Positions 10,041-35,974 of a stretch of 41,966 nucleotides of DNA are shown here, in pieces; the first letter of the stretch is position 1; each line of letters starts with the position of its first letter. The notes beneath the pieces were generated by a model. It was not told where the DNA came from and did not search any database. It saw nothing but the letters and a program-made list of their open reading frames with translations. This DNA comes from Deltaproteobacteria bacterium RIFCSPHIGHO2_02_FULL_43_33 (GTDB taxonomy: Bacteria; Desulfobacterota; GWC2-55-46; UBA9637). The stretch is taken from NCBI GenBank assembly GCA_001798165.1, contig MGRL01000024.1, forward strand, positions 1 to 41,966, read 5' to 3'. The position numbers and the translations under genes are program-made.

Positions 10041-10108
10041 AGTTGCAAGCTGCAAATTGCTCTATTTATGTCGCTGTGTATAAAAACTTAAATCTCGCAA
10101 CTTGAAAG
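10041..10108. repeat. 7-bp array with solitary end of the 154-bp repeat
   Basis: GAGTTGC AAGCTGC AAATTGC heptamers lead into 10058-10082, which is the reverse complement of the first 25 bases of the 154-bp repeat found at 16086 and 35322 (21 bases exact to the 16086 copy). A GCAACTTG heptamer arm follows. The result is a hairpin-capable mreB-mreC spacer. Confidence 0.6.
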
Positions 10109-15008: not shown

Positions 15009-15508
15009 AAAAACAGAAAGAGGCCTCAGAAGAAACAGTTGCGCGCCTCATGAAGAGGTTAAGACTTACTCTATCTATAGCAGAATCATGTACCGGCGGT
15101 CTTCTATGCCATAAAATAACTAATGTATCAGGAAGCTCTAAATACTTTAAAGGCGGAATCATCGCATACCATAATGAAGTAAAAAAGCAACTGCTTGGCG
15201 TACCGGCACATATATTGAGTAAGTTCGGCGCTGTAAGCAGAGAAACTGCTGTTGCAATGGCATATAGCATAAGAAAAATAATGGCTGCTGATATTGGCAT
15301 AGCAATAACAGGCATTGCCGGCCCAACAGGCGGGACAGCGGCTAAGCCCGTTGGAAGTGTATTTATAGCCATATCGGCAGCAACAAAAAGTAATTGTCAA
15401 AATTTCTTATTTCAAGGAAACAGAAAAACTATAAAACTTTCAACCTCAAACAAGGCGCTCAATATGCTGAAAGAATTTTTATTAGCAAAAGATAATGGAA
15501 CAAAATAG
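15005..15508 (+). CDS. pncC: nicotinamide-nucleotide amidohydrolase (CinA C-terminal domain)
   Basis: 167 residues, a stand-alone CinA C-terminal domain (PncC), which deamidates NMN to nicotinate mononucleotide in NAD recycling. Conserved features are LSIAESCTGGLLCHKIT with the catalytic Ser, YFKGGIIAYHNEVK, and AITGIAGPTGGTAAKPVGSV. The N-terminal MoaB-like domain of full CinA is absent. Coupled by ATGA to pgpA and overlapping thpR by 14 bases; the cluster recA-(thpR)-pncC is common in bacteria. Confidence 0.95.
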   Translation: MKKQKEASEETVARLMKRLRLTLSIAESCTGGLLCHKITNVSGSSKYFKGGIIAYHNEVKKQLLGVPAHILSKFGAVSRETAVAMAYSIRKIMAADIGIAITGIAGPTGGTAAKPVGSVFIAISAATKSNCQNFLFQGNRKTIKLSTSNKALNMLKEFLLAKDNGTK

Positions 15509-16076
15509 ATTTGTAAGAGCCTTTATTGCCATAGAATTGCCGAGCATAATAGTTAAAAGTTTAGGAGAGATTCAGGATAACTTAAGAGATACAACTAACA
15601 AGATTACATGGGTAAAACCGGACAATATTCACCTTACCATGAAATTTCTTGGCAATATAGAAACAGATAAGGCACATGCTATAGAAAAGATATTGAAAAA
15701 CATAGTTAGCCAAATCTCCATTGGAAAGCTGTCAGTCGAAGGGGTTGGGGCATTCCCAACAATAAATAACCCGCGGGTAATATGGGTTGGTATAGAAGAT
15801 GATAAAAACTTGCTCAAGATCTATACTCAACTTGAGGACGGACTGGCATCACTTGGCTTTAAAAAGGAAGATAGGCCATTCAAACCGCATCTTACGCTGG
15901 GAAGGGTAAAGTTTTTAAAGGATAAAAAAGGATTAAAGGAAAGACTTGAGAAACTTGCAGATATAAAGCTCGCCAGCTTTATAGTAGATAGCCTTATTCT
16001 ATTTAAGAGTGAGTTAACACCAGAAGGCTCATTGTATACAAAATTAAAAGAAGTAAAATTAGATAGAAATAATTAG
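15495..16076 (+). CDS. thpR: RNA 2',3'-cyclic phosphodiesterase ThpR
   Basis: 193 residues of the 2H phosphoesterase superfamily with both catalytic motifs: HLTMKFLG (about residue 49) and HLTLGRV (about residue 133). It opens 2',3'-cyclic phosphates in RNA; the older name is 2'-5' RNA ligase. The start lies within the end of pncC. It is the last gene before the structured repeat that precedes recA. Confidence 0.95.
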   Translation: MEQNRFVRAFIAIELPSIIVKSLGEIQDNLRDTTNKITWVKPDNIHLTMKFLGNIETDKAHAIEKILKNIVSQISIGKLSVEGVGAFPTINNPRVIWVGIEDDKNLLKIYTQLEDGLASLGFKKEDRPFKPHLTLGRVKFLKDKKGLKERLEKLADIKLASFIVDSLILFKSELTPEGSLYTKLKEVKLDRNN

Positions 16077-16085
16077 TTGCTTGTA

Positions 16086-16239
16086 TATACACAGCGACAT
16101 AAATAGAACAGCATACAGAGCGTCAGAACAAAGCAGACCAAGGCGCAACGAAGGTGAGGAGTGAGGCGTATTTTAAGCATACGCCGCAACGACGAGCCGA
16201 GGAACAACGCAGGTATGCGAAGTTATGACGCTCTGTATA
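16086..16239. repeat. 154-bp structured repeat, copy A (upstream of recA)
   Basis: Same length and about 95 percent identical (7 differences that I count) to 35322-35475, in the same orientation. ATACAGAGCGTCA at 16113-16125 is exactly inverted at 16226-16238. A central hairpin, GGCGTAT (16165-16171) and ATACGCC (16179-16185), has a 7-base loop. The ends resemble each other inverted (TATACACAGCGAC and TATACAGAGCGTC). The interior is visibly more GC-rich than the genes around it. No reading frame of note. The end is 31 bases from the recA start, so any recA promoter must lie in or before it. Confidence 0.8.
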
Positions 16240-16270: not shown

Positions 16271-17350
16271 ATGGCATTAACAGAAAAAGAAAAGGCTATA
16301 GACCTGGCAATAGGCCAGATTGAAAAGCAATTTGGAAAAGGCTCTATCATGCGGCTTGAAAAAGAAGGTGCAATAGCAACTGATATACCAGTCATATCAA
16401 CTGGCTCACCTGCTATTAATATAGCCCTCGGTATTGGCGGCGTTCCAAGAGGCAGGGTAGTAGAGATCTATGGGCCGGAATCTTCAGGGAAAACCACCCT
16501 TACCCTGCATATCATAGCCGAGGCGCAGAAAGCAGGCGGTACGGCTGCATTCATAGATGCCGAACATGCCTTAGACTTAGAATATGCGAGAAGGCTTGGT
16601 GTAAAAACCGAAGAACTTCTCTTATCACAACCAGATACAGGAGAACAGGCCCTTGAGATTGCAGAAGTATTGATACGAAGCGGCGCTATTGATGTGCTGG
16701 TTATAGACTCTGTCGCAGCCCTTGTGCCGCGTGCAGAATTGGAAGGTGATATGGGAGATGCCCACATGGGTCTCCAGGCACGACTCATGAGCCAAGCCTT
16801 GAGAAAATTGACCTCAACGATAAACAAATCAAAAACCTGCATGATATTTATAAATCAGATACGACACAAGATAGGTGTTATGTTCGGAAATCCGGAGACT
16901 ACCACCGGTGGAAATGCGTTAAAATTTTACGCATCCGTAAGGATTGACATTAGAAGAATCGGCGCTATTAAACAGGGTGAAACTGTTATCGGAAACAGGA
17001 CAAAGGTAAAGATTGTGAAAAACAAGCTGGCGCCGCCATTCAGGGATGCTGAGTTAGATATCCTTTATAATGAAGGCATATCCCGAGAGGGCGATTTAAT
17101 TGACCTTGGAGCACAGGCATCCATTATAGAGAAGAGCGGGGCATGGTTTTCATACGATGGTGAGAGAATAGGCCAGGGAAGAGAGGCTGCCAGAGTTTAT
17201 CTTAAAGAGCATACCGATATAACCTCTACAATAGAAGGAAAAATATTGCAACACTTTGGCATACGGCAAACAAGGAAAGATACCATAGCCCCAAAAATAG
17301 AAGAAAAGACAAAACCTTCAGCTGCGGCAAAAGGAGCAGGCGCAAGATAA
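16271..17350 (+). CDS. recA: recombinase RecA
   Basis: 359 residues. Walker [10 protein letters not shown] at 68-76, Walker [11 protein letters not shown], loop L1 [21 protein letters not shown]2 region [21 protein letters not shown]. It forms filaments on single-stranded DNA for recombination and SOS induction. Strong AAGGAGG ribosome-binding site. recX lies two genes downstream, the usual modulator partner. No convincing LexA box was identified between the repeat and the start. Confidence 0.98.
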
Positions 17351-33093: not shown

Positions 33094-35235
33094 TTAATTC
33101 AACTTAAATCTTTCCATGCTTTGCCTTAAGGTATAGACCTCCTTCTTCAGCATACCAACCACCTGCTCTAACTGGCCGGCATTTTTCATGCCAACATCTG
33201 CAATACCTGTAATATTCACCACTGCATCAGTTATCTTTTGGCTCTCATTTTCCTGTTCAAAAGAAACAACGTTTATCATTTGTATAGACTTCATCATATC
33301 TTCCGTATGAGATGCAATTATTTTACTGCTGCCGGTCTGCTCAGAGGTCGCCCTCTTTATCTGTGATACAAGCCCTTTCATCCTTTCAACCGCCTGCGCT
33401 ATCTGGCTGCTGCCTTGAGATTGCTCCTGTATCGCCTTGGCCATTGTATGAATAGTTTTTGTAATAACCTCCGTATTCTCCGTAACCTTCTTGCTGCCGG
33501 CTGTCTGTTCCTGGGTTGCCTTTGCAATCTTAGAACTCATATCCTGAAACGTCTTGAACCTCTGCATCATCCCTTCAAGTATGCCAATAGTCTCTGTGGA
33601 GAGTTTTTCTCCTTCTGCAACCTTTGTTATTCCTTCCTCAACTGATGATACAGCCTTTGCTATCTGCTCCTGAATGCCGGATATGATAATGGTAATCTCC
33701 TTGGTTGACGCAGCAGTCCTCTCTGATAACTCTCGTATCTCATCCGCAACAACGCTAAAGCCCTTTCCATGCTCCCCTGCCTGGGCTGCAATGATTGTTG
33801 CATTCAATGCCAGTAAATTTGTTTCTGCTGCCACATCGTCAATCACCTTGAGTATCTTCCCAATCTCTCTGGATCTATTGCCAAGTTCATCTATAACCCT
33901 TGCCAGGGCATTGACCGATTCTTTCACCGTTTCCATGCCTGCATGGGAAAGTTCCACTGCCTTTAATCCCTTCTCACTCTCTTTCGCCACTTCATTGGAT
34001 AGCTCCGCAGCCTCCATGGTATGCCTTTCTATCTCCATTGCAGTGGCATCTATCTCAAGCAGCGATGAGGCTGTTTCATCAGCGCTCACAGAAACATTAT
34101 CAATCCCTCCAACAACCTCTTTGAGCGAGCCGGCAATCTCTTCTATAGAGGCAGATATTTCCCCAACAGTGCCAGTCAGGGCGGCAACATTCCCATCAAC
34201 CTCTTCTATAGAGGAAGCCATCTCCAGAATAGAGGATGATATCTCCTCCGACAATTTCAATATCTGCTCCATGCCTTTCGCAATATCCCTCGCAGTTTTA
34301 TGCAGCCCATCTACGGATGCTGACACATCTTTCATGCTGCTATTCTGTTGGTTTGAGCCGGCCTTTATACTTGATGCGCTCTCATCAATCATCTTAACCG
34401 CAGTATCTACGTTTACAGAGAGTTCTCTGGTCTGAAGGATGATATTTCGCATCCCTTTCATAGCCTTATTAACAGCAGTTGCAAAATCGCCTATCTCGCT
34501 TTTGACCGCAATATCTACATTTCTTGAAATATCTCCGCCTGTCATACGGTCTGCATAACCAGTAAGTTCAGTCAGGGGTTTAGAAAAATCTTTGCGAAGG
34601 ATATAGGAGGATAGCAAGAGATATGCCGCTACAACAAAAAAACTCATTGCAAAAGTTATAACAATAAAACTTTTGAATCTAACTCTGGATATTTTTATTA
34701 AATCACCGGCCTCGCCCTCTTCCATCTTAACCAACCCATCTGCAATATCTCTCATTTTCTTATATCTTTCAGCCTGTATGCCGAGGGCCAGGTCCTTTGC
34801 CTCTTGAATGTTGTTTTGATATATAAATGGTATAATCTGTGCATCTCTTGTATTTCTAAAGTCATTCCACACAGCCTTAAAATCTCGCATAAATGCATTC
34901 ATTTTTTCGCCATGCCCTTCTAAACCCTTTTCAAACCACTGTATCAGCTCGCCGTCTATCTCTTTGCTTACCTCCTGAATATCGGCATTATACTTGTCCA
35001 TCTTATCCTTATTCGTCTCGCCCATCATTGCCACCAACTGGGCCCTTACATCGCTTATCTTGCCTTTCACATTTGCGGCAAAGAGGGAGGCAGCATAATG
35101 CTCTCCATACATCTGCTGCAAAAACATATTCATCTCTTTTAGGTTTTTATAGCCGATGTATGTCCCAATGCCCATCATGAATAGAAGCGCAAGAAAACCC
35201 ATATAAATTTTAAACTTCAGGTGATGAATATTCAT
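33094..35235 (-). CDS. methyl-accepting chemotaxis protein, 4HB-type sensor
   Basis: 713 residues. Membrane helix about 9-28, an all-helical periplasmic sensor about 29-188 of four-helix-bundle type with no haem or metal motif, second helix about 190-212, HAMP ([22 protein letters not shown] in outline), and a signalling domain with tip [25 protein letters not shown]. The tip shares the IIAxQAGE variant with the diheme receptor, so both probably engage the same CheA/CheW array. GGGAGG lies rather far (12 bases) from the ATG. The ligand is unknown. The 154-bp repeat lies upstream. Confidence 0.94.
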
Positions 35236-35321: not shown

Positions 35322-35475
35322 TATACACAACGACATAAATAGAGCAGCATACAGAGCGTCAGAACACAGCAGACCAAGGCGCGACGAAGGTGAGGAGTGA
35401 GGCGTATTTTTAGCATACGCCGCAACGACGAGCCGAGGAGCAACGCAGGTATGCTAAGTTATGACGCTCTGTATA
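35322..35475. repeat. 154-bp structured repeat, copy B (cheW-MCP gap)
   Basis: Matches 16086-16239 over its full length. 13-bp arms ATACAGAGCGTCA at 35349-35361 and inverted at 35462-35474; central hairpin GGCGTAT (35401-35407) with ATACGCC (35415-35421). It fills most of the 35236-35479 gap and ends five bases from the cheW stop. The rest of the gap, 35236-35321, holds only the MCP leader. Confidence 0.8.
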
Positions 35476-35479
35476 TAAA

Positions 35480-35974
35480 CTAATTCTGCTTCAGAGGTAA
35501 AGATAGAGTGCCCTTTTCCTCTGCTGTCAGTATTTTGTCAATGCTTAATATAAAGAGAAGGCCGCCTTCACTTATATTTGCCACACCGTCAAGATATTCC
35601 ACATCTTCTCCTTTTATCATCTTAGGCGGCGGAAGGAGGCTATCGTGAGGCAGGGTAATAATATCTGTCACATCATCAACAACAAGACCGAGAATCCTAT
35701 TTTCTACCTGCACAATAATAATTTTCGTTGCCCTATTGACCTCTGCCGGCAGACCAAACCTCTTTCTCAGATCAATAATCGGTATAACCATACCTCGTAA
35801 GTTGATAACACCTTCAACAAATGACGGCGCCTTGGGCAGCGGCATAATCTTCTGGTGCTTAATAACCTCTTTTATATGCATTATGTGCACGCCGTACTCT
35901 TCTTCCCCTAATTTGAAGCAGATAAGTTGACTATCGGAAGAAGTGCTTGACGTTTGAACGGCATCTTGCCTCAT
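35480..35974 (-). CDS. cheW: chemotaxis coupling protein CheW (first of two)
   Basis: 164 residues, one CheW domain (about 12-155): LICFKLGEEEYGVHIMHIKEV, PSFVEGVINLRGMVIPIIDLRKRFGL and VVDDVTDII are typical. It links receptors to CheA. Its start overlaps the second cheW as ATGA, so the pair is translated together. The stop codon lies at the edge of the 154-bp repeat. Confidence 0.94.
   Translation of the reverse strand: MRQDAVQTSSTSSDSQLICFKLGEEEYGVHIMHIKEVIKHQKIMPLPKAPSFVEGVINLRGMVIPIIDLRKRFGLPAEVNRATKIIIVQVENRILGLVVDDVTDIITLPHDSLLPPPKMIKGEDVEYLDGVANISEGGLLFILSIDKILTAEEKGTLSLPLKQN

Follow-up and report, generated by a model that had tools for sequence, protein, structure and literature searches.

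The 154-bp repeat that occurs twice in the window, by which we mean the whole stretch of 41,966 nucleotides analysed here, is probably a MITE, that is, a protein-free, non-autonomous transposon of about 154 bp, and would represent one of several branches of a superfamily found across the phylum. This reading draws together the length of 154 bp, terminal inverted repeats (TIRs) matching at 15 of 17 positions, stop codons in all six frames, the dispersed occurrence of many copies, and presence or absence of the element between relatives. The initial annotation had proposed either a non-autonomous mobile element or a structured RNA. Mobility has become firmer through an empty site upstream of recA and through target duplications around remote relatives, and a fold with compensatory changes was found as well; a strand-specific RNA role was not borne out, since both strands fold and the copies show no clear orientation preference.

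Anatomy and genomic copies

The two copies in the window (Table 1) had been described as near-identical, with about seven differences, exact 13-bp inner arms, a 7-bp central hairpin and inverted-like termini, and we recovered all of these features in the sequence. The copies are equally long and differ at exactly seven positions (16094, 16108, 16131, 16147, 16175, 16204 and 16219). Their exact inner arms, ATACAGAGCGTCA and TGACGCTCTGTAT, are nested within a 27-nt inverted repeat that is 81% complementary, and the 7-bp central stem consists of GGCGTAT and ATACGCC. The second copy of the end motif starts at 16112, compared to 16086 for the outer one. The right end pairs with this inner left arm, which yields one long imperfect hairpin around the central stem. 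Both copies are richer in GC (0.49 and 0.50) than the window as a whole (0.42) and contain a stop codon in each of the six frames, in agreement with the GC enrichment and lack of coding capacity reported at the outset. An 18-mer from the centre of the element had two matches in the window and none in 100 shuffles.

Table 1. Features of the element in the window and of the insertion sequence considered as a source of its mover.
Feature	Position	Strand	Remark
Element copy 1, 154 bp	16086..16239	+	between 2'-5' RNA ligase (thpR-like) gene and recA
Element copy 2, 154 bp	35322..35475	+	between cheW (35480-35974, -) and MCP gene (33094-35235, -)
Outer left terminal repeat TATACACAGCGACATAA	16086..16102	+	15/17 complementary to right end
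Inner left arm, end motif repeated 26 nt inside	16112..16139	+	16113-16139 pairs with 16212-16238
Central hairpin GGCGTAT-loop-ATACGCC	16165..16185	+	missing from 111-bp form
Right terminal repeat TTATGACGCTCTGTATA	16223..16239	+	inverted match to outer left end
Lone outer left end, 25 nt	10058..10082	-	E 9.6e-5; exact 20-mer match
IS1182-family IS, open transposase gene	L384 446-2142, contig C57 (G000)		repeats CAGACTGTGTGAAAACT, TATG duplication

Copy 1 is located between the 2'-5' RNA ligase gene (15495-16076) and recA (16271-17350), the latter starting 31 bp beyond the end of the element. The genes flanking the two copies were identified by Pfam as those of 2'-5' RNA ligase, RecA, CheW and an MCP, which confirms the neighbourhoods initially assigned to both. 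Relative to their neighbouring genes, the two copies have opposite orientations. The lone left end at 10058-10082 is probably a truncated relic.

Beyond the two copies first noticed, querying the genome that contains the window (2.19 Mb in 126 contigs) with the element returned 107 alignment rows, 20 of them nearly full-length. Thirty loci were retained and extracted, further partial rows being left out, and they hold 29 distinct elements, as two loci contain the same one. Seventeen of the 29 copies are exactly 154 bp and four are 111 bp long; the remaining eight comprise shortened (90, 108 and 121 bp) and enlarged forms (156, 165, 184, 212 and 242 bp), so that the shortened copies span 90-121 bp and the enlarged ones 156-242 bp. 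The 111-bp form is devoid of the central hairpin, and several longer forms hold other small palindromes. In the aligned copies, the flanks differ and the ends are sharp, as is typical of a dispersed multicopy repeat, and the 20-mer pattern of the outer left end occurs exactly 24 times in the genome. In three copies (L020, L026 and L027), we observed that the central hairpin is expanded by a C-rich repeat (CCTCCCCCTTTATCCCCC...), which itself folds back.

Ends, target duplications and spread

The plan of the element comprises an outer repeat, a second copy of it 26-27 nt inward, and a right repeat. In the remote genome G342 (4.1 Mb), the end motif gave 397+364 matches with at most two mismatches, compared to 0 for the control, and the layout consists of the outer repeat, the inner copy 27 nt later and the right end at about 151-153. 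When the inner arm was compared with the upstream DNA of 21 remote elements, identity peaked at -27 with a mean of 7.6 of 18 positions against a background of about 4.5; taken one by one, seven of these elements match best at -27 or -28, each with 11 or more of 18 positions identical.

The flanks of remote copies carry a target duplication of about 4 bp. At 30 site pairs from G342 and G176, a set in which one left end is counted twice and sites common by descent are kept, we found 17 exact 4-mers where 1.3 were expected, and at least three of four positions matched in 23 pairs where 4.4 were expected. As the adjacent T and A hardly vary, the duplication could measure anything from 4 to 6 bp. 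At the sites of the window's family, the target duplication is mostly eroded: at the same offset, seven of 107 sites have exact 4-mers (1.2 expected) and 20 match at three or more of four positions (10.2 expected, p 0.002), while a scan over all offsets in this family alone gave p 0.013. These 107 sites, which likewise include any that are common by descent, replaced an earlier set of 184, which was contaminated by inner-arm starts.

The site upstream of recA is without the element in three relatives (G001, G004 and G006), and the gap measures only about 30 bp in G001. Four filled sites aligned with diverged element-free relatives yielded no clean junction with a duplication. A TA target, as in the Correia and RUP repeats, had been considered on the basis of one of these four filled/empty comparisons, which would fit it; the flank statistics favour the duplication of about 4 bp, and the TA target was set aside, the single site being compatible with TA.

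These features can be accommodated in one scheme. A transposase supplied in trans, possibly of the DDE type, would bind three sites, namely the outer left repeat, its copy 26-27 nt inward and the right repeat, and would excise or copy the element, which would then be joined at a staggered cut and thereby acquire the duplication of about 4 bp. The folded centre might be retained for being helpful to the spread or the survival of a copy.

The element is shared widely among relatives. Counting its own, 38 of the 59 genomes searched gave matches, corresponding to 37 of 58 relatives, which answers for related genomes what the initial annotation had left to a wider search. The exact right-end pattern (21 specified bases) was present in 86 stretches of named genomes, and among the 80 titles listed, 79 read "Deltaproteobacteria bacterium" (many of them NC_groundwater isolates) and one "bacterium"; the named carriers are MAGs. 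Across the phylum, a covariance model of the core detected the element or remote kin in 98 of 297 genomes, its own included (E<=1e-4); up to 11 candidates were scored per genome, so that copy counts from this search are lower bounds. One copy in another class (L263, genome G131) is near-identical to the window core and scores as well as the window's own copy (155.7 bits), and its sequence suggests either horizontal transfer or contamination of that assembly. The other outside-class matches among those listed scored about 54-73 bits, and the copies of G342 22-70 bits with the same model. Overall, the superfamily appears to have moved between classes.

Remote relatives share the centre AAGGCGCG...TGAGGAaTGAGGCGTAC...GTACGCCGCAAtGACGA...GCGCAACGCAG, and their outer stems vary (GACGGCTTCGTAAAAAG, CAGGCTGTTCAAAAA, ATCACCAGCAAGATATC and others). 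The arms nevertheless still pair within each element, at 14-18 of 18 positions in 24 of 27 remote elements and at 11-12 in the other three. Shuffled arms paired at a mean of 8.3 of 18 positions and reached 14 or more in 0.06%, and arms taken from two different elements at a mean of 9.6, with 14 or more in 6.7% of 702 combinations; the register was picked for best fit in all sets alike, and the model used to find the elements itself rewards pairing. Bacterial MITE families are usually narrow, and the ends are usually their best-conserved part. Here, one in three of the genomes sampled from the phylum has a member of the superfamily, with hundreds of end matches in one genome, and the conserved middle with differing palindromic ends is the reverse of what is expected of a plain MITE. 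A bolder reading, which we hold to be possible but rather unlikely, is that the parasite is the folded core itself. As a DNA or RNA module able to fold on its own, it would have swapped its terminal repeats many times and be moved by different transposases in different lineages, while core, hairpin plan and three-site spacing were kept. If true, modular SINE-like parasites would have a prokaryotic counterpart in which selection acts on structure rather than on ends.

As a separate observation in two relatives, a palindrome of the form CGGGG-ACCCACrC...GyGTGGGTCGGG occupies similar internal positions of the element (L149 1263-1412 and L163 2905-3055), lying in the right arm in L149 and in the left arm in L163.

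Fold and transcriptional context

The fold of the element is real and conserved. Copy 1 folds from both strands and far more strongly than shuffled sequences (-52.7 kcal/mol, z -7.7 for the plus strand; -47.9, z -4.7 for the minus strand). In a MAFFT alignment of the 127-nt core from 24 of 33 selected diverse copies, 17 of 36 pairs were changed on both sides, with two-sided changes in 44 cells compared to 11.8 (sd 2.8) in shuffles; none of 500 shuffles equalled the observed value on any of five measures. Pairing reached 95.6% at the true partners against 22-38% when partners were slid. The nine copies dropped from this count have insertions, strong divergence or a left arm that does not pair; L149 and L150, whose left arm does not pair with the right, are among them. 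For the whole set of 33 copies, RNAalifold predicts 28 pairs, 18 of which have two-sided changes. All of these counts are to be read with the caveat that the structure was derived from the same sequences and that relatedness inflates them. The initial annotation had named compensatory changes as a check, and the absence of both further copies and covariation as the outcome that would speak against it; both copies and covariation were found.

The compensatory changes are also what would be expected if the repeat were a structured RNA, for instance a small RNA, a terminator or a cis-regulatory element, that had been spread by duplication and was selected for its RNA hairpin. AAAAAG ... CTTTTT surrounds the hairpin in many remote relatives and could stop transcription on both strands, which would fit such a role. 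We nonetheless regard this alternative as improbable. The element folds from either strand, its remote relatives have target duplications, and Rfam gave no match in the window at the gathering threshold, nor any overlapping the element when 10 loci were searched with E values up to 1. The same covariation signal would be expected from an RNA as from a palindrome in the DNA that a protein recognises or that hairpin-templated repair corrects.

The orientation of neighbouring genes points in the same direction. Relative to the element, the neighbours of 80 copies were arranged ++ in 30, -- in 24, +- in 14 and -+ in 12 cases, i.e. tandem in sense (30) or antisense (24), convergent (14) or divergent (12), and there is no clear orientation preference, which argues against the RNA reading. 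This sample is based on crude, mechanically called ORFs of at least 100 aa on both sides; 19 copies overlapping an ORF of more than 200 aa and copies without a neighbour in the retrieved DNA were set aside. At the recA copy, we found one promoter-like site, compared to 1.1 expected, and no terminator-like site. The latter also disfavours a structured RNA, and a promoter or terminator role for this copy was dropped. Judged from the genome of G001, the arrangement suggests that the recA copy lies within an operon gap. A hairpin in the recA leader is therefore likely, provided that the genes are co-transcribed, and copies in transcribed gaps such as this one might add a stable hairpin to the mRNA.

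Candidate movers and comparable repeats

Among the loci scanned, no autonomous partner with matching ends came to light, which counts against the MITE reading. Inverted ends 0.3-5 kb apart occur in several loci (at least 20 rows), and the ORFs of nine such loci were tested: none of their 17 ORFs of at least 170 aa matched a transposase family, the matches being to housekeeping families or to nothing. In G342, inspection by eye of 10 stretches revealed no transposase enclosed by such ends. Matches to rve or DDE_Tnp_1 in G342 and the window's genome (G000) gave 11 loci, of which none was bracketed by good ends; a few weak ends with five mismatches were present. attC-like sites were dropped after inspection by eye.

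The window's genome has a single DDE_Tnp_1 match, and this gene encodes a transposase of the IS1182 family (398 bits against a cut-off of 270). Of 22 arms tested, nine resemble the repeat of this insertion sequence, CAGACTGTGTGAAAACT, at an uncorrected p<0.05; the resemblance is not significant in the other 13, and the arms are not independent. From these sequence likenesses, IS1182-type enzymes may be considered a weak lead as movers. The same resemblance, together with the TATG duplication of that insertion sequence, might alternatively indicate that the repeat derives from a catalogued insertion sequence, either as its end or ends or as what remained after an internal deletion. We consider this very unlikely given how weak the resemblance is, and the element forms a complete unit that has both of its ends.

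RAYT transposases are unlikely as movers. A REPIN or BIME mobilised by such a REP-associated tyrosine transposase (Y1_Tnp) would be palindromic, mostly intergenic and of high copy number, as the element is; moreover, the window's genome has four Y1_Tnp matches, and two other repeat families in it contain GTAG...CTAC hairpins. However, none of these four loci has the element, only one of 34 Y1_Tnp loci has it within about 1.5 kb (a raw count), and Y1_Tnp is not matched at all in five of 20 genomes that carry the element, including G342 with its 761 end matches. The ends of the aligned copies are also free of a GTAG tag, and Y1 enzymes would not be expected to duplicate their target. Lacking both proximity to and co-occurrence with Y1_Tnp, this explanation was rejected, and we give it scarcely any credence. 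REPs tagged with CGTC are likewise described as being without a known transposase (PMC3733652). Both kinds of repeat are high-copy palindromes; REPs measure 20-40 bp, whereas the present unit has 154 bp, TIRs and a target duplication, and shows no link to Y1_Tnp.

A sequence-motif search of the main texts of papers found no description of the element, and its anatomy can be compared with several known repeats. Among these are the Correia or NEMIS repeats of Neisseria. According to PMC2229807, they are short MITEs that have TIRs and 5'-TA-3' termini, their transcripts form long stem-loops, and their two size classes of about 107 and 155 bp differ by an internal 50 bp. The element resembles them in anatomy and in having two sizes, here 111 and 154 bp, which differ by the central hairpin region; it differs from that account in its duplication of about 4 bp, its conserved core with varying ends, its second internal copy of the left end and its host group. 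RUP of Streptococcus pneumoniae is described as a MITE with a target that holds TA, and IS630-Spn1, which shares its TIRs, is proposed to move it in trans (PMC2229807); for the window element, neither such a partner nor a TA target is established.

The window element had no match in plasmids, and its exact right-end pattern none in viral contigs; the remote family members were without match in plasmids and phages. E. coli genomes should hold ERIC, and the window element had no blastn match in 20,395 E. coli records. ERIC (RU-1) of enterobacteria is, in the excerpts cited, a mobile repeat of 127 bp (PMC2229807), a length shared by the core of the present element. In Geobacter metallireducens, "short RNA elements" have been reported in 24 intergenic copies with the central palindrome GRCGTAGCGCTGCTACGCC, and similar ones in Desulfotalea psychrophila (PMC2700814). 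This palindrome resembles the GGCGTA..TACGCC hairpin of the window element, and the Geobacter elements may be earlier sightings of its kin. If confirmed, the superfamily would account for many intergenic palindromes that stand unannotated in these genomes, and it would prompt the question of which effect makes a folded insert that encodes no protein worth conserving.

The window's genome contains further short palindromic repeats. A second family, TATAGTGAACGAAATAAATAAGTAG...CTATA (L214-L224), is about 107-126 bp long, contains GTAG...CTAC hairpins and has 13 end matches with at most two mismatches, a few of which belong to related families. Additional TATA-ended families (L227, L233, L240; L243-L248, L253, L258) share an end like TATAnnnAnnGnnATAAATAACTTG and differ in their insides, which hold GTAG-tagged REP-like pairs in one family and a CTGTCATTCCCG...CGGGAATCC palindrome, which we take to be dRS3-like, in another. 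A contig-end sequence that had been read as an insertion sequence proved to be another short repeat end beside DNA recurring elsewhere. Finally, a mini-palindrome like TCCGCCTnnnGGCGGA takes the place of parts of loops or arms in two repeat families of this genome that are unrelated to each other, namely in L017, L022, L026 and L028 of the 154-bp family and in L217, L219, L221 and L223 of the second family, as if hairpins were inserting into hairpins.
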